A model generated the notes under the pieces. That model saw only the letters and a list, made by a program, of their open reading frames with translations, ran no database searches and was not told where the DNA came from. Shown in pieces: positions 17,410 to 36,457 of a stretch of DNA of 64,000 nt. The translations under genes and the position numbers were made by a program. This stretch comes from Lysobacter alkalisoli (GTDB lineage Bacteria > Pseudomonadota > Gammaproteobacteria > Xanthomonadales > Xanthomonadaceae): positions 62,001-126,000 of the forward strand of contig NZ_CP041242.1 of assembly GCF_006547045.1 (NCBI RefSeq), given 5' to 3'. How positions within the stretch are numbered: position 1 is the stretch's first letter; each line of letters starts with the position of its first letter.

Positions 17410-17504
17410 CCTGCCGGGGCGGAGTTTACGTGCGCGCACCCATCAGGCTGCGATATCGCCGTCCCTGAAGGCGCCCGGCCGGCATCTGCCGGCGGGTCCC
17501 CATG

Positions 17505-18077: not shown

Positions 18078-18251
18078 CGTTCCCCCTTGTCCAGTCCCCT
18101 GCCGATGCATTGTCGGCGGGAGCAACATCGGCCACGCCGGGGTGTGCGTCAAGCCCCGAAGCGGACCGCCGCACGCTCGACGTCGCGCGCTGGCCGCCGT
18201 CGCGCAACCGTGGGTAGCCCGGACAAGGCCACTGGCCGCATCCGGCTGCGG

Positions 18252-18479
18252 TCAGCCCGCGGTGGCGTGCCGCGGCGTCGGCCGCCAGCCCAGCAGCCGT
18301 GCCGGCAGGGTCAGCACCGCGTAGAGGAATGCGAACAACGCCGAGAAGGTGATGCCGATCAACCGGAACGGCAGCGACAGCAACCAGACGAAGGGCCACA
18401 GCACCAGCGCAAGCAGCGCCAGCGGCCAGCACAGCACCAGCAGCAGGCACCAGGCCAGCAGGGCGATGAAGGTCTTCAT
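18252..18479 (-). CDS. Small hydrophobic membrane protein
   Basis: A 75-residue protein with two very hydrophobic stretches (about 3-38 and 43-62, rich in Leu, Trp and Phe) separated by a single Arg-containing turn, and a positively charged tail. AAGGAG lies seven bases before the ATG at 18479, which makes a real small gene likely. No family is recognised. It is monocistronic between the TlpA and YciI-like genes. Confidence 0.65.
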   Translation of the reverse strand: MKTFIALLAWCLLLVLCWPLALLALVLWPFVWLLSLPFRLIGITFSALFAFLYAVLTLPARLLGWRPTPRHATAG

Positions 18480-21010: not shown

Positions 21011-21721
21011 CTATAGCAGCGCCCTCTCCAGTCGCTGCTTGCGTTGCTCCCAGTCCGGCATCACCTGGCCGAGCAGCTTGAAGAATCGCGCGTCATGGTC
21101 CCGGTGCTTGATGTGGCACAGCTCATGGGTCACCACGTACTCGATGCAGGGGCGCGGTGCGCGCACCAGATTGACGTTCAGCGTCATGCTGCCGGCGCGC
21201 GACAGGCTGCCCCACCGGGAGTGCATGGTGCGTACGATCAGGCGCGGTGCCGGTGCGTCCTTGAAGTGGCGCAAGCTGCCGTCCAGCACTTCGCCGAACA
21301 CGGCGCGGGCGCGGTCGAGATACCAGTGATGAAGCATGGCCTTGACACGCTGCGGCTCAGGCTCGCCAGCCACGCCGACGAGCAGCTGTCCGCGGGCAAG
21401 CTTCACCCCGGGCGTGTTGTTGGGCAACAGCTTCAGCCGATACTGCTTGCCAAGGTACAGATGCGATTCGCCGTTGATGTACTGCCGCGTCGGCGTGCGC
21501 GGACGATAGCGCTCGAATTCGGCCAACTGGCGGCTGATCCAGGCGGCACGTCTTTGCACCCGTTCGGCGATCAGGGGCTCGGGGCAACCTGCCGGCGCGC
21601 GCACGAGCACGCGGCTGTCGGGGTGCACCTCGATGGCCAATGTCCGCCGTGACGACAGAAACCTCACTTCGTAACGGATCGTGTCGCGGCCGTAGCTCAG
21701 CATCCCCGTCACAGTCTTCAC
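21011..21721 (-). CDS. YgjP-type (DUF45, WLM-like) metallopeptidase
   Basis: A 236-residue protein of the YgjP/DUF45 family with the gluzincin motif HELCHIKH (199-206), preceded by the conserved SRWGS (168-172). Genes of this family are often found next to hsdR of type I restriction systems; what they cleave there is not established. The start is a GTG at 21721 that overlaps the hsdR stop as GTGA, so it is translationally coupled and the last gene of the operon. The protein is cytosolic and complete compared with E. coli YgjP (about 170 residues) plus a longer N-terminal beta-rich part. Confidence 0.87.
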   Translation of the reverse strand: MKTVTGMLSYGRDTIRYEVRFLSSRRTLAIEVHPDSRVLVRAPAGCPEPLIAERVQRRAAWISRQLAEFERYRPRTPTRQYINGESHLYLGKQYRLKLLPNNTPGVKLARGQLLVGVAGEPEPQRVKAMLHHWYLDRARAVFGEVLDGSLRHFKDAPAPRLIVRTMHSRWGSLSRAGSMTLNVNLVRAPRPCIEYVVTHELCHIKHRDHDARFFKLLGQVMPDWEQRKQRLERALL

Positions 21722-24700
21722 TCCGTCATCCGGTGGCGGGCCAGCTGCATGGTCTTCTCGATGATCTCGTCCATCTCCTCGGTGGAGAGCGCGATGCCCT
21801 GCGTACCCCTGACCTCGTCGTAAAGGTAGTCATCGATCTCGTTCATCGTGCGCCGCTGCGCGTCGAGGTCGTCCCAGTAGCCCACCTTGCGGTTGCGCCG
21901 GAAGATGTGCCATACCGCCACCGCCGCCTCGACGGCAGCCGTCTGCGCCCGGTCGGCGTCGCCCAGGTGTCCCGCAACAAAGGGCTGCAGCAGGCCATAG
22001 ACGGCGGCCGCATCGGCATCATCGGCCAGCCCGGGCGGCAGGTCGTCGCGCTTGCGTGAGACCACGGCATTCCGGATTTCGCTGACGCGCTGCAGGTACT
22101 CCAGATCGGACAGGCGCTTGGCTCGGTAGTCGTCGATGGCCTGCTGGATCAGCCGGGAGAACTTTTCGTAGAACGCGGGGTCCTGCTCCAGCCGCTCGTG
22201 GATAGCGCGCTTGGTGGCATGGGCGATCGTGTCGGCCTTGGCGCCCAGGTTCTTTTCGCCGCCTGCGCCCTGCTCCTCGACCACCTGCTGGAACGCGGCC
22301 TCGTCGAAGATGTTCACCGGCGCGTTCAGCTGCACTACTTCGGAGGCCGAGATGTGCGTGTCCAGCAGCTTCTGGATGCGCGGCTCGTAGTCGGTCCTGT
22401 AGTCGATCGCTTCGGCGTAGCGCAGCTTCACCGCCGCCTTCAGGTTGACGAAGCGTTTCAGGTCGTTCTTGTACGCGCGCAGTTTCTGCTCGGGCGTGTC
22501 GGCGATGAAACGCTCGCTCGAAAGGGCGATGGCCAGCGTCTTGGCATAGGCCGAGAGGCGCCCGTAGAAGTCGGCGCGCAGCTTCGCGTCGGCAAGAAGC
22601 AGTTCGAAAGCCTCCTCGTCTTGGCGGTTCTTTACCGTCTTGAACAGGTCCCACAGCTCGGCATGGCGCTGCGGCAGTTGACTGACTTCGTCATGGATCG
22701 AGGCCAGCGCACCTTCCAGATCGCCCGCATCAAAGCCATCCAACCCACTGTATGTGGTCAGCGCTTCGTCCAGCTCACCCAGCACACCCACATAGTCGAT
22801 GACGTAACCGAAGTCCTTGGTCTTGCTGCCGGTCTCGTCCTCGTACAGGCGATTGACCCGCGCAATGGCCTGCAGCAGCGAATGATCCTTCAGCCGCCGG
22901 GCCAGGTAGAGCACCGTGTTGCGCGGCGCATCGAAGCCGGTCAGCAGCTTGTCCACTACGATCAGGATTTCCGGCTCGTCGCCAAACTTGAAGGCGTTGA
23001 CGATCTGCTTGTTGTAGTCGTCTTCCGAGCCGTAGCGCTTCATCATGCGCTGCCAGAAGGCCACCACCGCATCGGTGGATTCCTCCGCATCGACCTCGTC
23101 AAAGCCCTCGCGCTCGTCCGGCGGCGAGATGATCACCTCGCTGGTGACCGCACTCAGCTCGTCCAGGAAGGCCTTATAGCGCAGCGCGGCCGCCTTGCTG
23201 GGCGCCACCAGCTGCGCCTTGAAACCGGTGCCCTGCCAGTTCTGGCGGTAGTGCTCGCTGATGTCGAAGGCGCGCATGTAGATCACCTGCTCGGCCTTGT
23301 TCAGCATTTCGGCGCGGGCGTATTTCTTCTTCAGGTCGGCCTTCTGCTGATCGGTCAGGCCCTGGGTGTGGCGCTCGAACCAGATGTCGATGGCGGCCTG
23401 GTTCTGCTCCAGCTCGACCATGCGCCCCTCGTAGAGCAGCGGCACGATGGCGCCGTCGGCCACCGCCTGGTCGATGGCATAGGTGTGGATCACCCCGCCG
23501 AACCTGGCCACGTCGCTCTTCTCGCGGGTCAGCAGCGGAGTGCCGGTGAAGCCGATGTAGCAGGCGTTCGGAAACATCTGCCGCATCCGCGCTGAATAGC
23601 TGCCCAGCTGGGTGCGCTGGGTCTCGTCCACCAGCACGAAAATGTCGGGCGAGGCATCGCTGAACTTTCTGTAGGCAAGCGCCTTGTCGAACTTGTGTAC
23701 CAGGGTGGTGACGATGTGCGCCTTGCCATCGGACACCAGTTCCACCAGATGGCGGCCGCTCTCGGCCCGGTCCGGCGACAGGCCGCAGGCGGCGAAAGTG
23801 TTGCCGAGCTGCTTGTCCAGGTCCGCGCGGTCGGTCACCAGCACGATACGCGGATTGCGGATGGAAGGCTCCAGAGCCAGCGCGCGCGCCAGCATCACCA
23901 TGGTCAGCGACTTGCCCGAACCCTGTGTATGCCAGACGATACCGCCCCGGCGCTTGCCGCTGTCGTCCGTCTGCCTGACCCGCCGCAGCACCTCCTGAAT
24001 GGCGAACACCTGCTGGTAGCGTGCGATCTTGCGCACGCCGCCGTCAAATACGGTGAAGGCCCAGGTCATCTCCAGCAGGCGTTCGGGGCGGCACAGCGCG
24101 TAGAGCGCGCGGTCCTGCTCGGTCACCTGCCGGCCGACCAGGTAGGGCGCGGCCTCCTCGCGCACGCCCAGCCCGTCGAAGGCCAGATCGAACAGCGAGG
24201 CTTTCACCGATTCCGGCAGTGGGCGTTCCAGCAGCGGTGCCAGTTCCGCGTCGGCCACGTCCTCCTTCCACTTCGACCAGAACTTGGCCGGCGTGCCGGT
24301 GGTGGCATAGCGGGCCTCGTTCTTGTTCAGCGCCAGCACCATCTGCGCATAGGTGAACAGGCGCGGGATGTACTCGTCGCGCTGGTTGCGGATCACCTGC
24401 GAGATCGCCTGGCCCACCTCGACCTTGGGCGACTTGCACTCGATCACCGCGAATGGGATGCCGTTGACGAACAGCACCAGGTCCGGCCGGCAGGTCTCCA
24501 CGCTGCGCGTGCGCTCCACCGTGAACTCGGCCGCCACGTGATAGACGTTGTTGGCCGGATTGCGCCAGTCCACGTAGTTCAGCGTGAAGCTCTTCTGGTC
24601 GCCCTCGATGGACTGTTCCAGCGCCACGCCCAGAGTGAGCAAGTCGTATACCGCCTCGTTGGTCTTGAGCAGGCCGTCGTACTTGACGTTCTTCAGCCGT

Positions 24701-24963
24701 TGGATGGCGCTCTGGAGGTTCTCCTCGCTGAACAGATAACTGCCGCCCTTGTGCTGGATGCGATTCAGCTTCTTGAGCTGTTCGCGCAGGACTTCCTCCA
24801 GCAACACGTTGCCGGCCTTGCCGCCGCGCGCGAACAGCGCCTGGGCAGGTGTCAGGTACCGGTAACCCAGGTTGACCAGCACCTGCAGGGCCGGGAGCTG
24901 GGAGAGGTACTTTTCGTCGAAGCGAAAGGCCTTCTCCGTAGTGTGATCGTTGGAGGCAGTCAT
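21718..24963 (-). CDS. hsdR: Type I restriction endonuclease subunit R (HsdR)
   Basis: A 1081-residue HsdR, the motor and nuclease subunit that translocates DNA and cuts it away from the recognition site. An N-terminal PD-(D/E)xK nuclease is visible (Asp161 in RPDLVLF, Glu175 and Lys177 in AVIECKSP), followed by SF2 helicase motifs: Walker A HTQGSGKS (345-352), DETQR (446-450, in place of DEAH), FTGTPLL, and LLTGFDAP with the later ARVNR motif VI. The C-terminal helical part binds the methylase core. The start ATG at 24963 fits the family N-terminus; the upstream extension overlaps the HAD gene and lacks signals. Spacing from the HAD stop is 25 nt, the only gap in the operon. Confidence 0.95.
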   Translation of the reverse strand: MTASNDHTTEKAFRFDEKYLSQLPALQVLVNLGYRYLTPAQALFARGGKAGNVLLEEVLREQLKKLNRIQHKGGSYLFSEENLQSAIQRLKNVKYDGLLKTNEAVYDLLTLGVALEQSIEGDQKSFTLNYVDWRNPANNVYHVAAEFTVERTRSVETCRPDLVLFVNGIPFAVIECKSPKVEVGQAISQVIRNQRDEYIPRLFTYAQMVLALNKNEARYATTGTPAKFWSKWKEDVADAELAPLLERPLPESVKASLFDLAFDGLGVREEAAPYLVGRQVTEQDRALYALCRPERLLEMTWAFTVFDGGVRKIARYQQVFAIQEVLRRVRQTDDSGKRRGGIVWHTQGSGKSLTMVMLARALALEPSIRNPRIVLVTDRADLDKQLGNTFAACGLSPDRAESGRHLVELVSDGKAHIVTTLVHKFDKALAYRKFSDASPDIFVLVDETQRTQLGSYSARMRQMFPNACYIGFTGTPLLTREKSDVARFGGVIHTYAIDQAVADGAIVPLLYEGRMVELEQNQAAIDIWFERHTQGLTDQQKADLKKKYARAEMLNKAEQVIYMRAFDISEHYRQNWQGTGFKAQLVAPSKAAALRYKAFLDELSAVTSEVIISPPDEREGFDEVDAEESTDAVVAFWQRMMKRYGSEDDYNKQIVNAFKFGDEPEILIVVDKLLTGFDAPRNTVLYLARRLKDHSLLQAIARVNRLYEDETGSKTKDFGYVIDYVGVLGELDEALTTYSGLDGFDAGDLEGALASIHDEVSQLPQRHAELWDLFKTVKNRQDEEAFELLLADAKLRADFYGRLSAYAKTLAIALSSERFIADTPEQKLRAYKNDLKRFVNLKAAVKLRYAEAIDYRTDYEPRIQKLLDTHISASEVVQLNAPVNIFDEAAFQQVVEEQGAGGEKNLGAKADTIAHATKRAIHERLEQDPAFYEKFSRLIQQAIDDYRAKRLSDLEYLQRVSEIRNAVVSRKRDDLPPGLADDADAAAVYGLLQPFVAGHLGDADRAQTAAVEAAVAVWHIFRRNRKVGYWDDLDAQRRTMNEIDDYLYDEVRGTQGIALSTEEMDEIIEKTMQLARHRMTE

Positions 24964-24988: not shown

Positions 24989-25834
24989 TTACCACCAGTC
25001 CGAAAGCAGGCCGTTGGATGCGTGCCTGGCGGCAACCGCATCGATCTGCGCTTTGATGATCCGGTCCAGATCGGAGCCCTCGCCGTAGCTGGCGGGCACG
25101 GCGCAGTGGACGCGGCCATCGCTCATGTGCTTCTGCGCCTTGGCCTTTCCGCCCTTTTTGCCCGGCGTGTACACCGCGATGGAAAGCCCGCCCTGATCCT
25201 TGACCAGCCGGAAGCACGGGATATCGGTGTCTCCGTCGCCGATGAAGACCATGTTCTCGAACGGGACCGGGCGCTCGCGCTTGGGAACGACCTTGTTCAC
25301 GGAAGCGTTGTCGGACAGGTCGTGCGCGCCCTTGTTGATCCGGAACAGGTACTGCGTCTTTGTGGTGTAGTTGATCGCCAATGCTGGCCAGTCGGCGACG
25401 CCGTTCTGGTCGAACATGTACTTGGATGCGTAGACCTGCGCGAACTTCTTCCTGATCGGCGTGCCGGCAAAGATCTCCTCGTTCCCGGACGAGATCAGCA
25501 CATGCTGCAGTTCAACGGACTTTCCCTTGGCATACGCATTGACACGGTCGAACCACCCTTCCACGCCGTCGAACAAGGCGATTGATCGGCCTCGCGCCTT
25601 GAAGTCGCGCTTCCGGACTGCAACGCCACTGGCGCTCGCCTTCTTCAGCATGAGGTTCATGTAGACCAGGACTTCGTCGGCCTGGTGTTGTTTCGCCAGT
25701 TCTTTGACCTCTGCCCAAAATTCCTTCGGCGTCATTCCGATATCGGGAAGAAACTGGTGCTCCTGCATGTTCCCGGGGGCAAGCGTACCGTCGAAGTCAT
25801 AGGCGATGGCCATGCGGGCGTGCTTCTTGCTCAT
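24989..25834 (-). CDS. HAD-superfamily phosphatase in the R-M operon
   Basis: A 281-residue cytosolic HAD hydrolase with all four motifs: DFDGT (13-17, nucleophile Asp13 and acid/base Asp15), LISSG (113-117), a Lys in the TTKTQYLF region (about 159) and GDGDTDIPC (199-207, metal-binding Asp). An insertion between motifs I and II (about 30-105) forms a helical cap. The substrate is unknown; relatives of this size are annotated only as haloacid dehalogenase-like. Its start overlaps the hsdS stop (ATGA) and it lies directly in front of hsdR, so it is produced with the restriction system. A role in processing nucleotide or DNA-end phosphates is speculation. Confidence 0.85.
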   Translation of the reverse strand: MSKKHARMAIAYDFDGTLAPGNMQEHQFLPDIGMTPKEFWAEVKELAKQHQADEVLVYMNLMLKKASASGVAVRKRDFKARGRSIALFDGVEGWFDRVNAYAKGKSVELQHVLISSGNEEIFAGTPIRKKFAQVYASKYMFDQNGVADWPALAINYTTKTQYLFRINKGAHDLSDNASVNKVVPKRERPVPFENMVFIGDGDTDIPCFRLVKDQGGLSIAVYTPGKKGGKAKAQKHMSDGRVHCAVPASYGEGSDLDRIIKAQIDAVAARHASNGLLSDWW

Positions 25835-27069
25835 TGGTTGTTTCCATCGAGATTTGAGGTGATCCGCCACCGGCCGGTCAACAGCTTCTGCATCAGGCCT
25901 CGCTTCTGGGTCTTCAGCGCCGCAACGGACTGGCCGAGCAGGTCGATCTCCTCGCGCAGTGCGTTGAGGTAACGGGCGATGGCGGCTTGCGTGTTGGTAT
26001 CCGGCAGCGGAATCGTGATAGCCGCGAACTCGGAGAAGGACACGGTTTCGCGGACGCTGCCCTGGGCGCTGTTCTTGATGCGTTGGCGAGCCTCGTGGGA
26101 ATTCAGCCAGTGGAGGAAATAGTCCGAGTTGACTTTTTCCTCATCGAGCCGGAACACGACATACATCGGGCTGAGCACACCATCGTCCCAGCCGTCGAGG
26201 CGGGCGATGGAGCCGACGTTGATGCGCGACGGGTTGTAGGCGTACTGCCCACGGCGCACGACCTTGTAATTGGACAGGTCGGCACTGGCGACGCGGCGCT
26301 CGAACTGGTCTTCGGGCAGCACGAAGCCGCGGGAGTTGGTCATGCTCAGCACGCGGGCTTCGTTGCCGCTTCGATTACGCGTGGAGACTTCTCCAGCAAA
26401 GGTGCCGACATGGGCGTGCGGGTGCTGGCCCCGGCTGATCAGGCACGACAGTTCGTGGCTGTAGTGTCGCTCCTTCGCCGCGATCAGTTGCTCGATTTTC
26501 TGGATGGCGGTGTCCCAAGTCGACAGAAGGCTGGCAATCTCCTGTTGGAGTTCAAAGTTTGGTAACGAGACACGTTGGCGCTTGAGGTTCTTGCCATTAA
26601 TGACTGGAACGGTGCCGTCATTACAAAAGTGCTGTAGGTCTTGAAAGTCGAACCAGTAGTACAGGTATTCGGATGAGCAAGAGTGCGTATCCCTCACGGC
26701 CACAACGATCACGTTATCGTCTGTGAGGCTTGCGTGTCGAAGGATGCGCTTGTTGTTGTTTCTCAGTGCTGCACCAACTCGCGGGAATACGATGCTTCCA
26801 GGAGGAAATGGTTTCACGCCCATCTCTTCTATGACACTGTCATCAACGTAGTTGAGGGTCTTGTCGAGATACTTTGTATTTCCGTGAGCGTTGAGGTCGC
26901 CGACCTTTACGTACAGCCATTTTCCTGCCGCTTGACCTTGGTAGGTAGGACTGAAGGTGTAGCCCTGTTGCACCATTGCGATTTCGCCAAGTGGATATTC
27001 GTCGAAGTGGTGAGTTGTAGCTTGCCGAGTGGCGTTGTCTTTGCGCTTGGCGGTGGTTTCGAGTGTCAT
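25831..27069 (-). CDS. hsdS: Type I specificity subunit HsdS, full length
   Basis: A 412-residue HsdS with two target-recognition domains: TRD1 about residues 25-165, first conserved helical spacer about 170-215 (LPNFELQQEIASLLSTWDTA), TRD2 about 220-360, second spacer LPDTNTQAAIARYLNALREE at the C-terminus. Each TRD reads one half of a bipartite DNA target. Base composition is visibly more AT-rich in TRD1 (about 26.5-27.0 kb) than in hsdM or hsdR, the usual sign of exchange of recognition domains. Start and stop overlap rhuM and the HAD gene by 4 nt each. Confidence 0.92.
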   Translation of the reverse strand: MTLETTAKRKDNATRQATTHHFDEYPLGEIAMVQQGYTFSPTYQGQAAGKWLYVKVGDLNAHGNTKYLDKTLNYVDDSVIEEMGVKPFPPGSIVFPRVGAALRNNNKRILRHASLTDDNVIVVAVRDTHSCSSEYLYYWFDFQDLQHFCNDGTVPVINGKNLKRQRVSLPNFELQQEIASLLSTWDTAIQKIEQLIAAKERHYSHELSCLISRGQHPHAHVGTFAGEVSTRNRSGNEARVLSMTNSRGFVLPEDQFERRVASADLSNYKVVRRGQYAYNPSRINVGSIARLDGWDDGVLSPMYVVFRLDEEKVNSDYFLHWLNSHEARQRIKNSAQGSVRETVSFSEFAAITIPLPDTNTQAAIARYLNALREEIDLLGQSVAALKTQKRGLMQKLLTGRWRITSNLDGNNQ

Positions 27070-28139
27070 CTCTTCTTCCCCCGCCAGTTGCCTTCCATCT
27101 GTTGCCCGGACTGCTCCAGCCTCCCGGCCTCCTTCACCACGCGATCAAAGTCCGATTCGAGTTGATGCTCCTGGATCAGTCGGTATTTCTCGAATTCGCC
27201 CTCCGCATGATTTCTTGCGGCGTCGGCGCTGATGCGGCCGGCGTTGTCCAGAACCTCGCGGTCACTGAACTTCAGGAACTCGTCCAGCCGGTTGGCCCAG
27301 TCCTCCATGGTCATGGGAATGCGACGTTCGGCGCGGTCCTCGGCCATGTCCAGCCAGGCGTTGACGATGCGGCCCAGGGATTTCAGTTCGCCCTCGTCGA
27401 GGTAGTTCTTGGCGGTGCCGACATCGCTCTTGAGAATGCGGCCGCCGGGTGCGTTCTCCCAGCTCTTCAGGCCCATGTGCGGCTGGCTGGCGTCCGCTCG
27501 CTTGCGGATCAGCTCGGGGGCGGTGTGGCCGTGGATGGCGTAGTGCAGCTTGTTTTGCACCGTGGCGAAAAACTTCTTCGTGGTCGGGGCGCCGGGGTTG
27601 TAGTCCACGGCGGTGGCATAGATGTCGGTGATCTTCTGGTAGAAGCGCCGCTCGGACAGGCGAATTTCGCGGATTTCTTCCAGCAGCCGCTCGAAGTAGT
27701 CCTCGCCGAGAAAGGCGCCGTTCTCCAGGCGCTTGCGGTCCAGCACGTAGCCCTTGATGGCGAACTCGCGCAGCACCTGCGTGGCCCACTGGCGGAACTG
27801 GGTGGCGCGCACCGAGTTGACGCGGTAGCCGACCGAGATGATGGCGTCGAGGTTGTAGTGTTGTGCCAGGTAGCTCTTGCCGTCGGCGGCAGTTATCCGG
27901 ATTTTCCGGACAACTGAATCCGCATCCAACTCATTGGATTCGAAGATGTTTTTAAGATGCTCGCTGACCGTGCGCACGTCCACGGCGAACAGCTCCGCCA
28001 TCAGCTTCTGGGTCAGCCAGATGGTCTCGTCCTCGAAGCGGACCTGGAGGCTTTCCTCGCCCGCCTGGCGGGTGAAGATCAGGAACTCGGCGGTGCTGTT
28101 GCGGATGGTCAGGCCGGCGCCGCGCTTGTCCTTCTTCAT
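27066..28139 (-). CDS. RhuM-family protein embedded in the R-M operon
   Basis: A 357-residue protein of the RhuM family (named after a Salmonella pathogenicity-island gene). The N-terminal part has the family pattern RFEDETIWLTQKLMAELFAV followed by VRTVSEHLKNIFESNEL and the RKIRITAADGKSYLAQHYNLD segment, which resembles a winged DNA-binding or antirepressor-like domain. The C-terminal half is largely helical and charged. RhuM genes are frequently found inside type I restriction loci, but their action is not known. It overlaps hsdM and hsdS by 4 nt (ATGA), so it is made in proportion to the methylase. Confidence 0.9.
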   Translation of the reverse strand: MKKDKRGAGLTIRNSTAEFLIFTRQAGEESLQVRFEDETIWLTQKLMAELFAVDVRTVSEHLKNIFESNELDADSVVRKIRITAADGKSYLAQHYNLDAIISVGYRVNSVRATQFRQWATQVLREFAIKGYVLDRKRLENGAFLGEDYFERLLEEIREIRLSERRFYQKITDIYATAVDYNPGAPTTKKFFATVQNKLHYAIHGHTAPELIRKRADASQPHMGLKSWENAPGGRILKSDVGTAKNYLDEGELKSLGRIVNAWLDMAEDRAERRIPMTMEDWANRLDEFLKFSDREVLDNAGRISADAARNHAEGEFEKYRLIQEHQLESDFDRVVKEAGRLEQSGQQMEGNWRGKKR

Positions 28140-29695
28140 ACGCCCAGCTCCTTGAGGTACTGCTTCATGCGCGTGCGCACTTCGGCCAGTTCGCCTTCCA
28201 GGCGGTCGATCTCCTGCTCGACTGCGGCGACGTCGATCTCCTCTTCTTCCTCGAAGGTGTCGACGTAGCGCGGGATGTTGAGGTTGAAGTCGTTGTCGGC
28301 AATCTCCTGCAGGCTAGCGACGTGGGCGTACTTGTCCACAGGCGTCCGTGCACGGAAAGTTTCCAGGATGCGCGTCATGTGCTGGTCGAGCAGGGCGTTC
28401 TGATTCTTGCCGCTCTGGTAGTCGCGGCTGGCATCGATGAACAGCACGTCCTTGCAGTCCTCGCGGGCGCCACCATTTTCGCGGGCGCGGTCGAACACCA
28501 GGATGGCGACCGGGATGGAGGTGGTCGGGAACAGGTTGCCCGGCAGGCCGATGACGGCGTCGAGCAGGTTCTCCTCGATCAGAGCGCGGCGGATGCGGCC
28601 TTCGGCGCCGCCGCGGAACAGCACGCCGTGCGGTACCACCACGGCGACGCGGCCCTCCTGCGGCAGCGCGGTTTCGATCATGTGGGTGACGAAGGCGTAA
28701 TCGCCCTTGGATTTGGGCGGCACGCCACGCCAGAAACGGTTGTAGCGGTCGGCCTGGGCCTCGGCAGCGCCCCATTTGTCGAGGCTGAAGGGTGGGTTGG
28801 CGACCACCACGTTGAAGCGCATCAGGCGGTCGGCCTCGATCAGGACCGGGCTGTTGAGGGTGTCACCCCATTCGATGCGGGCGGCGTCCTTGCCATGCAG
28901 GAACATGTTCATGCGCGCCAGCGCCCAGGTGCTGCCATTGGACTCCTGCCCGAACAGGGCGAAGTCGCGGCTGCTCTGCGCCTCAACCAGTGCCGCGGCT
29001 TCGATCAGCAGCCCACCGGCCCCGCAGGTCGGATCACAGATGCGGTCGCCGGGTTTTGGCGCGGCCAGCTGCGCCAGCAGCTTCGACACCTGTTTGGGCG
29101 TGTAGAACTCGCCCGCCTTCTTGCCGGCATCGGAGGCGAAGCGCTCGATCAGGTAGATGTAGGTGTTGCCGATCACGTCCTCGGACACGCGCGAGGGCCG
29201 AAGGTCGAGTTTGGCGAAGTCGCCAAGCAGGTTCTCCAGCCGGTTGTTGCGGTCGCGCGTGCGGCCCAGATTGGCTTCGGAGTTGAAGTCGATGTTCCGG
29301 AACACGCCTTCGAGCTTGGCCTTGTTGGCTTCTTCGATGTGATCGAGGACGATGTTGATCAGCTCGCCGAGATTGGCCGCCTTGCGGCGCTCGTGCAGGG
29401 CGTTGAAGTCGGCCAGGAAGCGGTCGGTGACCTCGCCGGTCTTTTCGTCCTTGAACTCGACGTAGGGGAGGATGAAGCGCTCGCGCTCCAGCTTGCGGCG
29501 GATGCGCTCCTCGTTGTCGCCGTATTCCTTCCTGTACTCGGCGTAGTGGTCGGTCCACAAGTCGCTGATGTACTTGAGGAATAGCATCACCAGGATGTAG
29601 TCCTTGTACTGCGCCGGATCGACGACGCCGCGGAAGGTGTCGCAGGCGGCCCAGGCGGTGTTGTTGACGTCTTGCTGGGAGAGCTGGCCGGTCAT
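28136..29695 (-). CDS. hsdM: Type I DNA methyltransferase subunit HsdM
   Basis: A 519-residue N6-adenine methyltransferase. An N-terminal helical domain (about 1-160) is followed by the catalytic domain with SAM motif I DPTCGAGG (221-228) and the catalytic NPPF (300-303); the C-terminal coiled coil (EEEEEIDVAAVEQEIDRLEG) contacts HsdS. With HsdS it methylates the target and with HsdR it restricts. The start overlaps the stop of the half-size hsdS upstream (ATGA) and the stop overlaps rhuM. Confidence 0.96.
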   Translation of the reverse strand: MTGQLSQQDVNNTAWAACDTFRGVVDPAQYKDYILVMLFLKYISDLWTDHYAEYRKEYGDNEERIRRKLERERFILPYVEFKDEKTGEVTDRFLADFNALHERRKAANLGELINIVLDHIEEANKAKLEGVFRNIDFNSEANLGRTRDRNNRLENLLGDFAKLDLRPSRVSEDVIGNTYIYLIERFASDAGKKAGEFYTPKQVSKLLAQLAAPKPGDRICDPTCGAGGLLIEAAALVEAQSSRDFALFGQESNGSTWALARMNMFLHGKDAARIEWGDTLNSPVLIEADRLMRFNVVVANPPFSLDKWGAAEAQADRYNRFWRGVPPKSKGDYAFVTHMIETALPQEGRVAVVVPHGVLFRGGAEGRIRRALIEENLLDAVIGLPGNLFPTTSIPVAILVFDRARENGGAREDCKDVLFIDASRDYQSGKNQNALLDQHMTRILETFRARTPVDKYAHVASLQEIADNDFNLNIPRYVDTFEEEEEIDVAAVEQEIDRLEGELAEVRTRMKQYLKELGV

Positions 29696-30261
29696 GGGGT
29701 GGTCTCGTGGGCGGATTTCATCAGGAGGTGTTGGGTGGCGCGCTGGCGCAGGGTTGCGATGCGGGCCAGCAGCGATTGTTCTCGGTCGACCAGGGCGGCG
29801 GTCTGTGCAATGTGTTGCTGTACGGCCAGCGAAGGCAGTGGAACGTCCAGTGCTTTCACGGCTTCAGCGCTGATCATCCGCACCGAGGTGCCCTCGGCCA
29901 GCGCGCCAAGTTGCGCTTGGGTGGCGGGCGCGTTGATGTACCAGCACAGGTAGGCGGGCAGTACCTTGTGGGGTCGGATCAGCAGCATTGGCGCCGCTAG
30001 CACGGCCGGGCCAATGCCTTTCAGCACTTGGGCTGCGTTATTGCTGCGGCCGCGCGAGCGAAACAGCAGATCGCCTTCGCGCAACAGGTGGCGGGTCTTG
30101 CCCGTGGGCAATGAAACCCGAATCGCGTCCTCGGCCTGCAGCAGGTTGGCGTCGTCGATGTCCTTCATCTGGATCACCGCGACGTCTCCCTCCGGGTCGT
30201 GTTCGAGGCGTGACCGGAACGGGTAGCCCATCTGTATGTCTGCAAGCTCGCCGAGATGCAT
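29692..30261 (-). CDS. Half-size type I specificity subunit (single TRD)
   Basis: A 189-residue HsdS-like protein consisting of one target-recognition domain (about 1-135, starting HLGELADIQMGYPFRSRLE) and one conserved spacer helix (VPLPSLAVQQHIAQTAALVD onward). Full HsdS proteins have two of each. Half-size S subunits are known to work as dimers that read symmetrical targets. The gene is intact, is the first of the operon, and overlaps hsdM by 4 nt, which argues against a remnant. The ATG at 30261 is 28 nt from the predicted transcription start. The longer open frame upstream reads through a recD fragment and is not coding. Confidence 0.82.
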   Translation of the reverse strand: MHLGELADIQMGYPFRSRLEHDPEGDVAVIQMKDIDDANLLQAEDAIRVSLPTGKTRHLLREGDLLFRSRGRSNNAAQVLKGIGPAVLAAPMLLIRPHKVLPAYLCWYINAPATQAQLGALAEGTSVRMISAEAVKALDVPLPSLAVQQHIAQTAALVDREQSLLARIATLRQRATQHLLMKSAHETTP

Positions 30262-30295
30262 GTTTGCAAAAACGCCATTACGACAGAATGCTGGC

Positions 30296-30324
30296 ACCCT
30301 AGTCCTCGGGGTGACTCTTGTCAA
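30296..30324 (-). promoter_or_regulatory. Predicted sigma-70 promoter of the R-M operon
   Basis: Read on the minus strand: -35 TTGACA (30324-30319), a 17-nt spacer, and -10 TAGGGT (30301-30296). The -35 is a perfect match, the -10 is weaker but correctly spaced. It lies 35 nt before the ATG of the first gene. The surroundings are more AT-rich than neighbouring DNA. The repeated element CATTAC/GTAATG on either side could be a regulator site. Confidence 0.6.
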
Positions 30325-30364
30325 TACGTAGTAATGCGGTTTCTGCAAAACTAACCTAAGAGGC

Positions 30365-30721
30365 CGACCCCAACCGCCAGCCCAGCCCGAAATGCGGGTG
30401 GCATGCCGCGCCAGCGCGGTCTCGATGATCGCGGCGCTGCCGGCCAGGTGGGGTTCGCGGCGGGGCGGTCTAGCCCAGTGCGCGCGCGAGCACACGGTTG
30501 GACCGTTCGGGCAGCAGCAGCCAGACTTCGTCGAACTCGGAGCCTGGGCCTTGTGCAGGGTCATGGCGAAGGCGCTTTCGGGCGGGCAGGGTGGCGGGGT
30601 GGATGGGGCGCGGTTGCGATGTGGATCCTGGCCGGGGAACTAGCGACGAGATGGCTGTAGCCGTCGCGCAGGCAGATGCCGATGTCACCGTTGAGCAGGT
30701 AGTGGCGATAGCTGTTCTCGC
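30365..30721 (-). pseudogene. Decayed copy of the recD 3' end
   Basis: This stretch matches the last about 370 nt of the intact recD (36604-36971) in the same orientation, base by base in most places. Shared blocks include the segment encoding SEFDEVWLLLPERS and HLAGSA-IIE-ALARHA. It has several small deletions that break the frame (for instance in the region matching 36700-36730 and at the GCGCTTTCG block), an in-frame stop and lost ends, so it cannot be expressed. It lies between the LysR gene and the start of the restriction operon. Its presence implies a duplication or recombination at recD. Confidence 0.85.
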
Positions 30722-30737: not shown

Positions 30738-31658
30738 TCATTTTTCCGAGTTGCCCACGCTAGCCTCCGCCTTCAACCACTCGCAGAAAGCATCGGCGCC
30801 GGGGTGGGGCCGGCCGCCATCAGGTCTGACAACCCAGAGTGCATACGCATTGGGCAGTGTCAGCCCGAAAGGCCTGACCAGCCGTCCGCGTTGCAGGTCT
30901 TCCTCGACCAAGGGGGCAACCCCGAGGGCGATGCCGTGGCCGGCGGTGGCGGCTTCCTGGGCGAGGTAGATGCTGTCGAAGACGGGGCCGTGGGTGGCGT
31001 CCACGCGTTTCGCGCCGGCGGCGTGCAGCCAGGCGGGCCAGTCGGGGACGCCGGGGCGGTCGGTGGCGCTGTCGTCGTGGAGCAGGGTGTGGTGGCGCAG
31101 GTCGTCGGGCGTGCGCAGGGGATGCGGGCCGTCGTGCGCCAGCGCGGGGGCGCAGACGGGGAATACCGGGGCGTCCATCAGGCGTTCGGCGACGACGTCG
31201 GTGTAGCCGCCCGGGCCGTAGCGGATGGCGATGTCGATGCCGCCGCGGACGAAGTCGGCGGGGTCGTTGCCGGTCTCGATGCGGAGCTTGAGCTCGGGGC
31301 AGTCGCGGTGGAAGCGGTGCAGCCGCGGCGCCAGCCACTTGGCGGCGAAGGATTCCAGGGTGCTGACGCGCAGGTGCGCGGCGCCGGGCGCGGTGGCGCG
31401 GTCCAGGGCGAGGTCGAGCTGCGCGAACACCTCGCCCAGCGATGCGGCCAAGGCCGCGCCTTGTTCGCTCAGTTCCACCACGCGGTGGCCGCGGTGGAAC
31501 AGGGTCACGCCGAGATGGGCTTCCAGCCGCTTCACCTGGTGGCTGATCGCCGCCGGGGTGACGAACAGCTCGGCGGCGGCGGCCTGGAAACTCAGGTGGC
31601 GGGCCGCGGCCTCGAAGGCCCTGAGCGCGTTGAGCGGAGCGGGGTGGCGGGGCTTCAC
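30738..31658 (-). CDS. LysR-family regulator, GcvA-like
   Basis: A 306-residue LysR regulator of the GcvA/AmpR branch: HTH in about residues 8-65 (LNALRAFEAAARHLSFQAAA, then VTPAAISHQVKRLEAHLGVTLFHRGHR) and an effector domain with GIDIAIRYGPGGYTDVVAERL. The start is a GTG at 31658. It is divergent from the metallo-beta-lactamase-fold genes at 31759, with about 100 nt between them that contain AT-rich sequence around 31700-31735, so it probably controls them. Confidence 0.88.
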   Translation of the reverse strand: MKPRHPAPLNALRAFEAAARHLSFQAAAAELFVTPAAISHQVKRLEAHLGVTLFHRGHRVVELSEQGAALAASLGEVFAQLDLALDRATAPGAAHLRVSTLESFAAKWLAPRLHRFHRDCPELKLRIETGNDPADFVRGGIDIAIRYGPGGYTDVVAERLMDAPVFPVCAPALAHDGPHPLRTPDDLRHHTLLHDDSATDRPGVPDWPAWLHAAGAKRVDATHGPVFDSIYLAQEAATAGHGIALGVAPLVEEDLQRGRLVRPFGLTLPNAYALWVVRPDGGRPHPGADAFCEWLKAEASVGNSEK

Positions 31659-31758: not shown

Positions 31759-32616
31759 ATGATGGCCCGCATCGAAACGATGCATGCCCCCATGAGATAC
31801 GAAACGATCGGTTCCAACGTGTTGATGTTCGTCGGCGACGATTACCAGTCGGTCGCCACCGCCTTCCTCGACGGTGACGACGTGCTGCTGGTCGATGCGC
31901 TCGGCAGCATGGACGATGCGCTCGCGCTGCGCCGGGTGCTGTGCGAGGAGCTGGGCAAGACGGTGCGTGTCATCGCCGCGACTCACTACATGAGCGACCA
32001 CGGCGCGGCGATGTCGCTGTTCCCGGAGGCGCTCACGGTCGCGCATCGGCAGCATCGGCAGACGTTCCTGTCGCAGAACCGCTGCGTGCACGCGTTCTAC
32101 CGCGAGCCGAAGCTGGTGTTCGACGTCGGCATGAGCCTGCGCTGGGGCGCGCACGAGTTGCACTTCGTGCACAACCCCGGCAAGACGGCGGACCACGTCA
32201 GCGTCGATGTGCCCAGCGCCGACCTGGTCTGCGCGGGCGACAACATCGTCGGCAACATCGTCTACCTGTCCCGCGCCGATCCGGTGATGCTCCGCGCGGC
32301 GATCGGACGCATGCGCCAGTTCGGCCGCGGCACGGTGATCGGCGGCCACATGGGCCGGTTTCCCGCGGTCACGCTCGACAATGCGGTGCACTATCTCGAT
32401 CGGTTGCAGCAGATCGTCGTCGACATTCGCGCCTGCGTGCCGATGGACGGCGTCGCTGGCCGCGTCGCCGCGATCCGCATCGAGGACTGCGTCGCGCCGG
32501 GGGTCGAGCCGAGCGACTTCGAGCGTAAGTGGCATGGACACAACCTGGAGGTGATCGTGTCGCAGTCGGTGTTCGCGCTCGATGCCGCGGTGGCCGCACG
32601 GGAGGTCCGCGCATGA
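31759..32616 (+). CDS. Metallo-beta-lactamase-fold protein with altered metal motif
   Basis: A protein of about 285 residues with an MBL fold close to SoxH/quinoprotein-relay-type hydrolases: first strand region VLMFVGDDYQSVATAFLDGDDVLLVD, then ATHYMSDHGAAM in which the usual HxHxDH reads H76-Y-M78-S-D80-H81, so one zinc ligand is Met. Other ligands are present: TADH (His145), GDN (Asp161), GGH (His197). There is no signal peptide. Start uncertain: ATG 31759 or 31762, with later ATGs at 31780 and 31792. It overlaps the next gene as ATGA and is divergent from the LysR gene. Confidence 0.72.
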   Translation: MMARIETMHAPMRYETIGSNVLMFVGDDYQSVATAFLDGDDVLLVDALGSMDDALALRRVLCEELGKTVRVIAATHYMSDHGAAMSLFPEALTVAHRQHRQTFLSQNRCVHAFYREPKLVFDVGMSLRWGAHELHFVHNPGKTADHVSVDVPSADLVCAGDNIVGNIVYLSRADPVMLRAAIGRMRQFGRGTVIGGHMGRFPAVTLDNAVHYLDRLQQIVVDIRACVPMDGVAGRVAAIRIEDCVAPGVEPSDFERKWHGHNLEVIVSQSVFALDAAVAAREVRA

Positions 32617-33479
32617 ACCGCGACGATCACCCGTATCGCCACGGTCTGGGACGCCGGGCCTTCCTGTCCGGCATGGCGGGCCTGGCGGCATCGGCGCTGC
32701 TGCCCGGTGGGCGCAGCCTGGCCGCGGTGCCCGCCGACGGACTGCGCATCCAGCGCCTGGCCTGGGCCGGCATCCGCCTGCAGCTGCCCACCGCCACGCT
32801 GTTCATCGATCCGCTGGTTGACCGCGAGACCTGGGGCGACGCGCTCGGCGACGCGCTGGTGCCGGTCGACGATCCGCAGGGCAACGCCTATGTGCTAGTC
32901 ACCCACGCACACGGCGATCATTTCGATGCCAAGGCGGTGGCGGATGCACTGGCCGCGGGTGGTGCCCTGGTGCACCCGGCGGGCACGAACCCGCTGCCGC
33001 TGCCGCCGAAGGCGCGGGCCTGGCCGAGCGCACCGTGGGAACCGCAACTGCTGGGCGACTTCACCGCGACCGCCGTGCCGGCGTCAGATGGCTACGGCGA
33101 CCCGCAGATGTCGTGGGTAGTCTCGGCCGGCGGCCGCCGGATCTTCCACGGCGGGGACACCCTCTGGCATGGGCACTGGTGGCGGATCGGCCGCCAGTTC
33201 GGCCCGTTCGATGCCGCATTCCTGCCGGTCAACGGCGCGCGCTTCGGCTGGCGCAAGCCGGTCAGTGGCGAGCCCGGCACGCTGACGCCCGAGCAGGCGG
33301 TGGCCGCCGCGACGATCCTCGGCGCGCGCCGCCTGGTACCGATCCACTACGGCGTGTCGGGCATGGACGAGTACATCGAGGTCGCGGACCCGATTGCCGC
33401 ACTGCGTCGCGCGGTGCGCGGGAGTGCAGTGCAGCTGCAGGTGCTGGCGCCGGGCGAATGGCTCGACTGGTCGGATTGA
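32613..33479 (+). CDS. Tat-exported MBL-fold hydrolase (UlaG/NAPE-PLD-like)
   Basis: A 288-residue protein with a twin-arginine signal (GRRAFLSGMAGLAASALLPG) and the UlaG-like MBL fold: THAHGDHFD metal motif, FHGGDTLWHGHW (Asp ligand), NGARFG and LVPIHYGV (His). Proteins of this group hydrolyse lactone or phosphodiester-type substrates; the exact one is unknown. Export by Tat means metal loading and folding occur in the cytoplasm. The ATG overlaps the stop of the preceding MBL gene, so the two form one operon, with a cytosolic and a periplasmic partner. Confidence 0.85.
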   Translation: MNRDDHPYRHGLGRRAFLSGMAGLAASALLPGGRSLAAVPADGLRIQRLAWAGIRLQLPTATLFIDPLVDRETWGDALGDALVPVDDPQGNAYVLVTHAHGDHFDAKAVADALAAGGALVHPAGTNPLPLPPKARAWPSAPWEPQLLGDFTATAVPASDGYGDPQMSWVVSAGGRRIFHGGDTLWHGHWWRIGRQFGPFDAAFLPVNGARFGWRKPVSGEPGTLTPEQAVAAATILGARRLVPIHYGVSGMDEYIEVADPIAALRRAVRGSAVQLQVLAPGEWLDWSD

Positions 33480-33494: not shown

Positions 33495-33590
33495 GGTCCG
33501 GCCGCGTTGCAGGTCTTCTTCGACCGGCGTTTCGTCATGCAGCAGGGCATGGTGGCGCAGGTCGTCGGACGTGCGCTCTGTGCGATCTCG
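33495..33590 (-). pseudogene. Decayed fragment of a LysR gene
   Basis: Two pieces of the LysR gene at 30738-31658 are recognisable, fused by a deletion of about 160 nt: the piece encoding VEEDLQRGR (matching around 30880-30912) and the piece encoding RTxDDLRHHxLLHD (matching around 31068-31118). Both are in the same orientation as the intact gene. The fragment has no start and no HTH. Together with the intact LysR gene it brackets the two MBL-fold genes. Confidence 0.75.
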
Positions 33591-33968: not shown

Positions 33969-35537
33969 ATGTCGAATCGCAAACCTTTCGCTTCCGTTCG
34001 CTTGCTCCGGGCCAGATTGATCGGGCAGTTGTCGATGTTGTGTGCGACGGCGCTCCTGTTTGCAGGACCTGCATTCGCCCAGCTTCCAACCGCCCAGCAA
34101 GTCGCGGGCCAGATCCGGATCGGCTGGAACCTGGGTAACACCATGGAGGCGATCTGCAGCGAGACAGCCTGGGGCAATCCAGCCGCCACGCAGCAACTGG
34201 TCAACTCCGTGAAAGCTGCCGGCTTCAATGCCATCCGCATTCCGGCGGCCTGGGACTGTCACGCCAACCAGCAGACGCAGACCATCGACTCGACCTGGAT
34301 GGCGCGCGTCAAACAGGTGGTGGACTACGCGTACAGCCAGGACATGTACGTCGTTCTGAACATCCATTGGGATGGCGGCTGGCTCGAGGAGCACCCTTTC
34401 TACTCGCACCAGGCTGCGAACAACCAGAAGCAGTGGAACTACTGGACCCAGATCGCCAACACGTTCCGCAACTACAACGAACGCATGCTGTTCGCCGGCA
34501 CCAATGAAGTTCGCGCGAACTACGGTACGCCGACCACCGAGCACAACACCGTTCAACAGTCGTACAACCAGACATTCGTCGATGCCGTGCGCGCAACCGG
34601 CGGCAACAATGCGTCGCGCACGCTCATCGTGCAGACCTACAACACGAACGTGCAACACGGCCTCAACTTCTTCAACATGCCGTCGGACTCGATCGCCAAC
34701 CGGCTCATGGTCGAGGTCCACTACTACGATCCGTTCCAGTACACGCTGGATCCGGAGGGGAGCTGTTGGTATTGGGGCTCGCCCTATCCTCCACAAAGCG
34801 ATTGTTCCTGGGCCCAGGAGAGCTATGTCGACAGCCTCTTCTCGCAGGTTCGCGCCAGGTGGGTGGACAACGGCATCCCGGTGATCATCGGCGAGTACGG
34901 CGTCGAGTTTCGTTCGGGCATGAACCGGCAGTCGCGCGAGTACTACCTGGAATACATCAACCGCGCCGCCCGGCTCAATGGCATCAAGACCTTCTACTGG
35001 GATAACGGCACGGCCAATTTTGCGTTGTTCAACCGCTCCAATGGCTCGGTCGTCGATGCCGGTGCCCTCAACGCGATCAAGCGCGGTGCCGATTCCGGCC
35101 AGATCATTGCAAACGGTACGTATCGGGTGATTTCCCGACACAGCGGCAAGGCGCTCGACGTGAGCGGCCGCAGTACTGCCGACGGTGCAAACGTACTTCA
35201 GTGGACGTATGGCGGCGCCAACAACCAACGCTGGACGTTCACCCACCTCGGAAACAACACCTACCGGATCACTGGCGTTCAAAGCGGAAAGGCGTTGCAG
35301 GTAGCGAGCACATCGGCAGCGAATGGAACCAACGTGGACATTCGGACCTATACCGGCGCCAATAATCAGCGCTGGATTGTCTCGGCGACGAGCGGGGGCT
35401 TCTACCGGCTGTCACCGGTCAGCAGCACCGGCTCGGCGCTGGATGTCTCGGGCGTCTCTTCGTCCGATGGTGCAAACGTTCACCAGTGGGGCTGGTTGAA
35501 TGGCAACAATCAGCAGTGGGCGATCCAGGCTCCCTGA
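33969..35537 (+). CDS. Secreted GH5 endoglucanase (cellulase) with ricin-type lectin domain
   Basis: A 522-residue secreted enzyme. The signal peptide ends at about residue 38 (LCATALLFAGPAFAQ). The GH5 catalytic domain (about 40-370) shows IRIGWNLGNTMEAICSETAWG, IRIPAAW, the acid/base Glu180 in AGTNEVRA and the nucleophile Glu309 in IIGEYGVEF; it should cleave beta-1,4 glucan. After a short linker, residues about 381-520 form a ricin-B/CBM13-like domain with three repeats ending QRWTF, QRWIV and QQWAI, for sugar binding. The ATG at 33969 is preceded by GGGGGG only. It stands alone between a LysR fragment and a terminator and may have been acquired together with the block around it. Confidence 0.93.
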   Translation: MSNRKPFASVRLLRARLIGQLSMLCATALLFAGPAFAQLPTAQQVAGQIRIGWNLGNTMEAICSETAWGNPAATQQLVNSVKAAGFNAIRIPAAWDCHANQQTQTIDSTWMARVKQVVDYAYSQDMYVVLNIHWDGGWLEEHPFYSHQAANNQKQWNYWTQIANTFRNYNERMLFAGTNEVRANYGTPTTEHNTVQQSYNQTFVDAVRATGGNNASRTLIVQTYNTNVQHGLNFFNMPSDSIANRLMVEVHYYDPFQYTLDPEGSCWYWGSPYPPQSDCSWAQESYVDSLFSQVRARWVDNGIPVIIGEYGVEFRSGMNRQSREYYLEYINRAARLNGIKTFYWDNGTANFALFNRSNGSVVDAGALNAIKRGADSGQIIANGTYRVISRHSGKALDVSGRSTADGANVLQWTYGGANNQRWTFTHLGNNTYRITGVQSGKALQVASTSAANGTNVDIRTYTGANNQRWIVSATSGGFYRLSPVSSTGSALDVSGVSSSDGANVHQWGWLNGNNQQWAIQAP

Positions 35538-35704: not shown

Positions 35705-36181
35705 TTACCCGAGTGGCAGCATCACCGTCATGTCGTGGATGGGTGACACGATGAAGCCGTGTTTGAGGTAGAACGCCTTCGCTTCTTCATCGATGGCGTG
35801 GCACAGCAGCGCACGGGCGCCTATCTGTTCGCAGGTCTGCAACGTCCGTTGTACGGCATCCTTGAGCAACCCCTGTCCGATCCCTTGGCCAACCCAGTCC
35901 GCGTGCACAGCCAAGCGCCCCAACACGATGACCGGGATCGGACTAGGCATGTTGCGTCGGATGCGGCCGGGCACATCTCCATGTGACACCGCGCCGGCCG
36001 CCAGCGCGTAGTAGCCCACGACGTGCTGCTGCTCGTCACAGACGACGAAACACCTCGATGCGCCAGACGCCTGATTCTGGCGCGCCCGCTCCAACAGCCA
36101 CTTTGTCAGTTCCGGTGCGCTGCAGCGGAAGTCGTCCAGCCGGTGCTCATCGTTGAGCGGGCTGGGGGCACTGAGCGGCAA
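35705..36181 (-). CDS. GNAT-family acetyltransferase toxin (TacT-like)
   Basis: A 158-residue GNAT acetyltransferase of the kind that pairs with DUF1778 antitoxins (TacT/AtaT group); these toxins acetylate the amino group of charged tRNA and stop translation. Acetyl-CoA binding motif: VLGRLAVHADWVGQGIGQGL; C-terminal YLKHGFIVSP has the conserved Tyr. The start is a TTG at 36181, three bases after the antitoxin stop, with GGGAG nine bases upstream. It is the second gene of a toxin-antitoxin operon. Confidence 0.88.
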   Translation of the reverse strand: MPLSAPSPLNDEHRLDDFRCSAPELTKWLLERARQNQASGASRCFVVCDEQQHVVGYYALAAGAVSHGDVPGRIRRNMPSPIPVIVLGRLAVHADWVGQGIGQGLLKDAVQRTLQTCEQIGARALLCHAIDEEAKAFYLKHGFIVSPIHDMTVMLPLG

Positions 36182-36184
36182 GGC

Positions 36185-36457
36185 TCAGCGCTCCCAGGGC
36201 GCCGGGGTGCTCAACAGGCGGCGGATCGCCGCATTGTCCTCCAGGGGCGCATCGAGCTGGGCATTGAAGCGCTGCAGGGCCTGCCGGCTCAGGGCGAACC
36301 GGGTTTGGTCGGCCAACACTTCTCGCGCCTTATCGCACACGGCGTCCAGGATGAACTCCGTGCGGTTCATGCCGCTGACTTCCACGGCATGGTCGATCAG
36401 CGCCTGCTTGGCGGCAGGCGCGCGGAAATTGATGACCTTGCTGGTGGCGGCGCTCAT
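36185..36457 (-). CDS. DUF1778 (RHH) antitoxin
   Basis: A 90-residue antitoxin: N-terminal ribbon-helix-helix (KVINFRAPAAKQALIDHAVE, then VSGMNRTEFILDAV) that binds DNA and represses its own operon, and a C-terminal tail that neutralises the GNAT toxin (ALSRQALQRFNAQLDAPLED, NAAIRRLLSTPAPWE). The ATG at 36457 is preceded by AGGAG eight bases upstream; a longer frame to 36550 has no signals and crosses the operator. Confidence 0.9.
   Translation of the reverse strand: MSAATSKVINFRAPAAKQALIDHAVEVSGMNRTEFILDAVCDKAREVLADQTRFALSRQALQRFNAQLDAPLEDNAAIRRLLSTPAPWER

Follow-up and report, generated by a model that had tools for sequence, protein, structure and literature searches.

How a decayed piece of recD came to lie beside a restriction-modification (R-M) operon, some 6 kb from the intact gene, and which of the two recD ends is the older, are the questions raised by this locus of Lysobacter alkalisoli. 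They were approached through a 64,000-nucleotide stretch of contig NZ_CP041242.1 (assembly GCF_006547045.1, positions 62,001 to 126,000 of the forward strand; hereafter, the window) and through the recD loci of related genomes. The scar is best read as the product of a known process, gene-end displacement, acting in a new form at an unexpected anchor gene.

The Decayed recD Tail

The two copies of the recD tail are located as follows:

30367..30718, minus strand: decayed, frame-broken recD 3' tail, corresponding to recD positions -376 to -11 (blastn, 84%)
36589..38592, minus strand: intact recD, 667 aa (Pfam AAA_19, AAA_30, RecD_N and UvrD_C_2), the last ~370 nt of which match the remnant

When the window was compared with itself by blastn, 36603-36968 and 30367-30718 matched on the same strand with 83.97% identity over 368 columns and six gap openings (E 1.1e-107). 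Local alignment of the two tails gave a score of 443, compared with at most 35 for letter shuffles (n = 100). Between the two stretches, ungapped repeat families start 6237-6251 nt apart, and the longest exact run remaining between the tails is 29 nt. The original prediction, made from the letters of the window alone, had described a frame-broken copy of about the last 370 nt of recD at 30365-30721, in the same orientation as the intact gene and 6.2 kb from it; all of this was borne out, with the coordinates right to within 3 nt. A search of the 3.86-Mb genome with the 461 bases around the remnant revealed no third copy of the tail at E <= 0.001.

No frame of the remnant is open throughout: frames 0, 1, and 2 contain 1, 2, and 1 stops, respectively, and the recD reading switches between frames along its length. 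Changes on each branch were polarised by the majority base of the other recD genes. On the remnant branch, they are distributed 14/14/13 over the three codon positions (7 ambiguous changes omitted), and on the branch of the intact tail 1/3/10, with an excess at third positions. The even distribution indicates that, for most or all of the period since its split from the present recD end, the remnant has evolved as non-coding DNA.

Whether the remnant is closer to the recD of another species had been put forward as a check. It is not detectably so, as its best identities, although close to each other, are 83.2% to the window's own recD and 82.2% to the next, that of G250 (L133). In a tree of 126 tails, which was midpoint-rooted and in which the support of the node joining the two window tails fell on the root, the remnant is the sister of the window's own recD end. 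A foreign origin of either tail is thus unsupported by identity and tree. Because the two tails are sisters and no foreign allele is seen, the donor must have been close kin, or else the event was a duplication. In the latter case, the recD tail would have been copied locally, through unequal exchange or break repair, and the space between the copies filled by unrelated later events. Such an intrachromosomal duplication accords with the sister relationship and with a remnant that passed through no phase of coding evolution after the split; nevertheless, we regard it as unlikely, given what is seen in other genomes of the family (see below). A mosaic structure of the window's own recD was considered as well and cannot be claimed, the placement of its body in a body-versus-tail comparison of trees being weak (support 0.22 with G006).

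Genes Around the Remnant

The genes surrounding the remnant, together with the flank that the window has in common with its relatives, are listed below:

14318..18479: conserved flank, common to relatives downstream of recD, comprising a DUF885 protein (14318-16213, plus strand) and a 75-aa protein (18252-18479, minus strand)
21011..21640, minus strand: YgjP-like metallopeptidase (PF01863), which adjoins this HsdR also in G026, G054, G015, and G156
21718..24963, minus strand: HsdR (REase_I, E 3e-206)
24989..25834, minus strand: HAD-fold protein, PADLOC candidate PDC-S34 (PDC-S34, E 4e-121; PF12710)
25831..27069, minus strand: full-length HsdS, 412 aa (Specificity_I, E 1e-56)
27066..28139, minus strand: RhuM family protein, PADLOC candidate PDC-S05 (PF13310, E 5e-111; PDC-S05, E 2e-156)
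28136..29695, minus strand: HsdM (PF02384, E 9e-103)
29692..30261, minus strand: half-size HsdS (PADLOC Specificity_I, E 7e-25), starting 105 nt below the remnant
30738..31658, minus strand: LysR regulator (PF03466, PF00126), its stop 19 nt from the 5' end of the remnant
31795..32616, plus strand: MBL-fold protein 1 (PF00753, E 1e-9)
32613..33479, plus strand: MBL-fold protein 2 (PF12706, E 2e-22), 82% identical to a gene downstream of recD in the same-genus genome G001
33498..33576, minus strand: fragments of a second LysR gene (93% over 28 nt and 89% over 45 nt; tblastn E 5e-5 with a 700-base target)
34035..35537, plus strand: GH5 cellulase with ricin-B-type lectin repeats (ORF 33759-35537; PF00150, E 9e-57; PF14200)
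35705..36181, minus strand: GNAT acetyltransferase, TacT-like toxin partner (PF13508, E 3e-11), 3 nt behind TacA
36185..36457, minus strand: TacA-like antitoxin, TacA1 family (PF08681, E 4e-19 on the 121-aa ORF 36185-36550)

The two recD tails therefore flank TacA, TacT, GH5, the two MBL-fold genes, and LysR; both gene order and Pfam matches agree with the predicted content of this block, namely LysR, two MBL-fold genes, GH5, and a toxin-antitoxin pair. The last of these is a putative TacAT pair, judging from the adjacency of a TacA1-family antitoxin gene and a GNAT gene. The restriction operon on the other side of the remnant is likewise real, reading HsdS, HsdM, RhuM, HsdS, HAD-fold protein, HsdR. 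It qualifies as type I through HsdR, HsdM, and HsdS, all of which are recognized by PADLOC, and HsdM and the first HsdS by Pfam in addition. The half-size HsdS precedes HsdM and the full-length HsdS follows RhuM, and matches occur in the same order in G026 and G156. A type I system with an embedded RhuM is ordinary in itself; what is unusual is its place beside a recD remnant. The GC content is 0.57-0.64 in the R-M operon, 0.72 in recD, 0.60 in GH5, and 0.63 in TacT.

The boundary between the remnant and the operon holds a trap for annotation. The longest ORF of the first hsdS, 29692-30564, reaches into the remnant, where its first residues, MTLHKAQ, can be compared with the recD motif MTVHKAQG. 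Taken at face value, this ORF would have a false start fused with the recD remnant; a gene caller based on codon usage places the likelier start at 30261. Elsewhere in the block, the LysR fragments at 33498-33576 lie directly behind MBL-fold gene 2 on the same strand as the intact LysR gene (30738-31658), forming a small decayed direct repeat that is perhaps the scar of a second event. Farther away, a perfect 42-nt inverted self-match (a palindrome, 12524-12565) lies between two genes, which from their appearance we take to be mlaD and mlaE.

Recurrence of recD-Tail Fragments in the Lysobacteraceae

For comparison, 80 recD loci were sampled from named genomes, of which 35 (L015-L048 and L052) were used as family members, and to these were added seven same-genus stretches from six genomes and 80 loci from other genomes of the family. 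Removal of identical tails left 110 loci, with no hidden duplicates among them, and 97 of these have at least 7 kb downstream of recD. L018 and L030 were dropped because they come from the same genomes as L135 and L152 (identical tails), and L101 is a contig-end fragment.

Searches with the recD of each locus uncovered same-strand recD-tail fragments behind the intact gene in six of the 97 loci: the window, G254 (L134), L. endophytica (L135), G389 (L136; short fragments only), L. salinisoli (L152), and G301 (L205). A seventh genome, G403 (L226), emerged from a scan of the Luteimonas group. A profile search of 107 downstream stretches detected five of the six loci at E <1e-10 and G389 weakly, at 0.007; in this search a single reverse-strand match reached E 0.001 and the best upstream match 4e-5. 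In the Luteimonas group, second copies lie beside recD in five of the 50 genomes with a recD match, G403 included, and all are on the same contig, strand, and side as recD and within 10 kb of it; one additional, stray distant match was obtained in G408. In the Pseudoxanthomonas group, the figure is two of 37 genomes; one of them, G412, is marginal (an 83-nt, 73% match directly behind recD, in a contaminated assembly) and was not counted. Outside the family, no recD-tail fragment was present in any of the 35 loci with at least 4 kb downstream (of 45 fetched).

Control searches covered 464 other genes from these loci, none of which had a clean fragment-tail copy. Two cases, a paralogue pair in L190 and a 92-nt repeat in L178, are debatable. 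Intact tandem paralogues (L211, L190, and L145) were left out of the control, and an "other gene" at 5842-6663 of L134 is the recD fragment itself. By Fisher's test, the difference between recD (6/97) and the control is significant at p 2e-5, or 5e-4 if both debatable cases are counted; the 97 here are the loci with at least 7 kb downstream, whereas the gene caller tested recD in 64 loci, with six positive. Because the Luteimonas cases share cargo, the seven genomes amount to at least three independent origins rather than seven, and with three origins only, p becomes 0.005 (0.04 with both debatable cases).

The fragments begin at various positions of recD (-376, -874, about -970, -297, -142, and others), although decay may have shortened some. 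Six copies extend to the end of the gene (the window, two in L. salinisoli, and one each in L134, L. endophytica, and L205), and in these homology stops between 19 nt before and ~6 nt past the last matched recD codon. Homology ending near the gene end is expected where two downstream regions meet and speaks against a local duplication of recD. So does the tail tree, in which the L205 copy groups with L180 (support 97) and the L134 copy falls in another Luteimonas clade (supports 48-89), each apart from the recD of its own genome.

A few matches in same-genus relatives stand aside from this pattern. In G005, an incomplete assembly (L100, L101), recD matches with differing identities are found on two contigs, reflecting either a mixed assembly or a real second copy, and two more weak stray matches (E 2e-4 to 3e-4) were obtained in G001 and G003.

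Which recD End Is Old

The relative age of the two ends can be read most clearly in L. endophytica and L. salinisoli, which are sisters by the recD body (95.3% identical). The last 160 nt of their intact recD genes are only 73.4% identical, whereas the displaced copies of the same segment are 97.0% identical (Fisher p 3e-8). Beyond the recD stop, the DNA of the two species is unrelated until collinearity, at 95% identity, resumes at +1721 in one species and at +289 in its sister, and the displaced copies of both lie inside this collinear part. Species descent is therefore tracked by the displaced copies and not by the ends now attached to recD. Together, these comparisons show that the end of recD was replaced in this pair, the old end being pushed downstream together with its old neighbours. 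Local duplication leaves such replaced ends unexplained.

The neighbours themselves point the same way. The displaced copies of both species are immediately followed by a three-gene cassette. It encodes a 778-aa protein that combines a carboxypeptidase-regulatory-like domain with weak matches to outer-membrane barrels, then a response regulator and a histidine kinase. In L143 and L203 this cassette adjoins intact recD itself (after 422 and 162 nt, respectively), and in L187 an MFS gene lies between recD and the cassette. It follows a recD fragment in G254, L. endophytica, G389, and L. salinisoli, and in G403 as a 39-aa relic. Since the cassette adjoins intact recD in some genomes and recD fragments in others, the fragment is best read as an old recD end that has remained with its old neighbour. 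The cassette is also far more alike between species than are the recD genes beside it: between G254 and the L. endophytica-L. salinisoli pair, the cassette is 93-94% identical and the recD bodies 81%, which suggests that the cassette has been transferred between species at this site. This discrepancy, too, is left unexplained by duplication.

In G403 (L226, 6629-13335), the stack consists of recD, a PIN-domain gene, an HTH/DUF433 gene, a recD fragment, the cassette relic, and a type III R-M system. The PIN-domain and HTH/DUF433 genes presumably form a toxin-antitoxin-like pair, and the arrangement resembles that of the window, with its recD, TacAT and further genes, recD fragment, and type I R-M operon.

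Order of Events in the Window

The block behind recD in the window is not one of conserved synteny across relatives, in line with the original prediction. The distance from recD to the gene of the 75-aa flank protein is 18.1 kb in the window, compared with 6.1 kb in G006 and 4.1 kb in G004, the two same-genus relatives in which it was detected. Among 120 relative loci, with downstream stretches of a few bases to 18.5 kb and some genomes present twice, TacA, GH5, HsdR, the HAD-fold protein, and both HsdS proteins had no match downstream of recD at E 1e-10, and HsdM matched only at 29%.

In the original prediction, the restriction operon or the block between the copies had entered by recombination at the end of recD, bringing a second tail that subsequently decayed. 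Entry that leaves second recD tails is indeed supported for this family, but the roles of the two tails may be the reverse of those proposed, because the fragment is the old tail in the best-resolved relatives. By analogy with these, the remnant in the window would be the old tail, lying beside the type I R-M operon, and the TacAT-GH5-MBL-LysR block would have come later with the present recD end.

Direct evidence from the genus is mixed, and the sampled relatives include none with an empty version of the window's site. Over the last 120 nt, the recD genes of six same-genus relatives are marginally closer to the remnant (0.689) than to the intact gene (0.673), largely owing to one codon; farther upstream, the intact gene is the better match by about 0.05. 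Other groups shift within the last 120 nt as well, g11 (+0.006) by nearly the same amount, and the single genomes of g7 and g35 are negative. The same-genus match may thus weakly hint that the remnant is the native version. The gene 82% identical to that of MBL-fold protein 2 downstream of recD in G001 speaks for the opposite order, with the MBL block as the older part, and the arrangement MBL2-MBL1-LysR is found downstream of recD also in Stenotrophomonas mori.

The MBL match is likewise compatible with a native MBL-LysR part and an R-M operon, or a larger insert, that arrived with a recD tail which then decayed, leaving the intact recD wholly native. The sporadic distribution of the operon fits this scenario, as HsdR at E <= 1e-200 is found in six genomes, counting that of the window, among 395 of the family, and all six same-genus relatives lack such a match. 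Its GC content of 0.57-0.64 is lower than that of recD, though GH5 and TacT are as low. In G156, moreover, the R-M operon lies ~50 kb from recD on the same contig. A further point comes from G301, where the remnant belongs to a 2.3-kb segment separated from recD by 0.94 kb, a shared small gene included; its relative G352, which is 92-96% identical around the segment, lacks it, so that in G301 the remnant may have arrived with the insert. The segment may be an insertion that brought the tail or may have been deleted in G352. Three observations speak against an arrival with the R-M operon: the 35 kb read around the same operon in G026 contain no recD, the Luteimonas cases that could be resolved have the old tail as their fragment, and the remnant in the window displays no foreign affinity. 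We judge this course of events to be decidedly improbable and tentatively infer that the remnant is the old tail.

Probable Displacement at a Housekeeping Gene

Taken together with the relatives, the remnant is probably the scar of a C-terminal displacement by homologous recombination, of the kind described for rhs genes and type VI secretion system (T6SS) effectors, at a housekeeping gene, recD. In such an event, DNA carrying a recD 3' end followed by new genes would recombine through its homologous tail with the chromosomal recD. It could enter either as a circle, through a single crossover, or as a fragment with a homology anchor on one side and an illegitimate join on the other. The outcome would be an intact, possibly chimeric recD, followed by the new genes and then by the old recD tail, truncated at its 5' end and with its former downstream neighbours still joined to it, and the orphan tail, having no start, would decay neutrally. 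Applied to the window, the new block would comprise TacA-TacT, GH5, the two MBL-fold genes, and LysR, with the type I R-M operon as the old neighbour.

Replacement of a gene end is also a property of certain integrating elements. Prophages and islands may supply a replacement end and displace the old one, as do e14 and phage 21 in icd and SXT in prfC, and these elements use an integrase and a fixed att site. Islands that carry a replacement tail and integrate at a site in the recD 3' end would produce the same topology as that observed here. The genome contains three PF00589 integrases, of which none is in the window and the nearest, assuming a circular chromosome, is at a distance of 0.64 Mb from recD, and none was found among the cargo proteins of the ten relatives scanned; this search covered tyrosine integrases. 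The fragments, moreover, start at different recD positions, although decay could blur or hide a common site. Site-specific integration accordingly seems very improbable, and recombination through the recD tail is the route that we would favour.

The closest precedent is provided by the rhs genes. Jackson (2009; PMC2935791) describes displaced tips and proposes circular intermediates with homologous recombination. As at recD, an intact gene is followed by 3' fragments of itself, variable in length, the old ends having been shunted downstream. At recD, the elements of such a process are a full gene followed by 5'-truncated, same-strand 3' fragments (six of 97 loci, and G403), fragment lengths that vary with no fixed breakpoint (starts from about -970 to -142, some perhaps shortened by decay), and, in L. 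endophytica and L. salinisoli, an attached end that has been replaced by a non-orthologous one. The two systems differ in where the variation lies: rhs genes vary in the tip itself, whereas the recD tail is a conserved helicase end and it is the cargo behind it that varies. Unlike rhs, the anchor gene here is a housekeeping recombination gene; no Rhs model matched the window protein, which instead matches RecD_N and helicase/AAA-type models.

A second parallel is found in the T6SS effectors of V. cholerae, for which stacked arrays with the old 3' end shifted back, and homology-facilitated illegitimate recombination as their suggested origin, are described by Kirchberger (2017; PMC5361080). Both the stacking and the shifted 3' end of the old gene resemble the recD site. 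The arrays, as described there, are built from effector/immunity modules, whereas no link between the recD cargo and the function of RecD is apparent. Among open-licence papers, none on recD as an insertion site was found.

A more far-reaching version, which we offer tentatively and hold to be doubtful, is that recD-tail cassettes are integrase-free mobile units of the Lysobacteraceae. RecA would excise a circle by way of the flanking tails, the tail on the circle would dock, as a homology arm, at any related recD and in every case regenerate an intact gene, and cargo (toxin-antitoxin, R-M, RhuM/Bro, and metabolic genes) would be stacked in order of arrival behind a recombination gene. If displacement does operate at recD, a mechanism known from polymorphic toxins would extend to a housekeeping repair gene, where it would lay down cargo, defence genes included, in successive layers without an evident integrase. 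The fragments would then order the insertions, making the stack readable like strata, and recD tails behind recD would reveal acquired regions that escape searches based on integrases.

Genes Behind recD and Defence

The nature of this cargo was surveyed in the 96 loci in which a gene was called no more than 1.5 kb from recD, out of 108 (the window and L101 being left out). The first genes behind recD matched 87 Pfam families, with several matches per protein possible, indicating that the recD end is a variable site; RhuM was the commonest family, with six. Of the PADLOC models, the commonest match was a single RhuM/Bro model, PDC-S05, with 10 of the 96 first neighbours. Far genes, taken from the 90 loci that include a complete gene at a distance of more than 8 kb, give PADLOC matches too, including JetB in 5 of 90 and others among the matches listed for the top 25 families. 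A general enrichment of defence genes behind recD is thus unsupported, as first neighbours and far genes both match PADLOC and only RhuM/Bro stands out. The original phrase, a defence island beside recBCD, is apt as far as the R-M operon of the window is concerned. RhuM genes are located just behind intact recD in L139, L144, L166, L168, L178, and L025, and a RhuM gene is also embedded in the R-M operon of the window.
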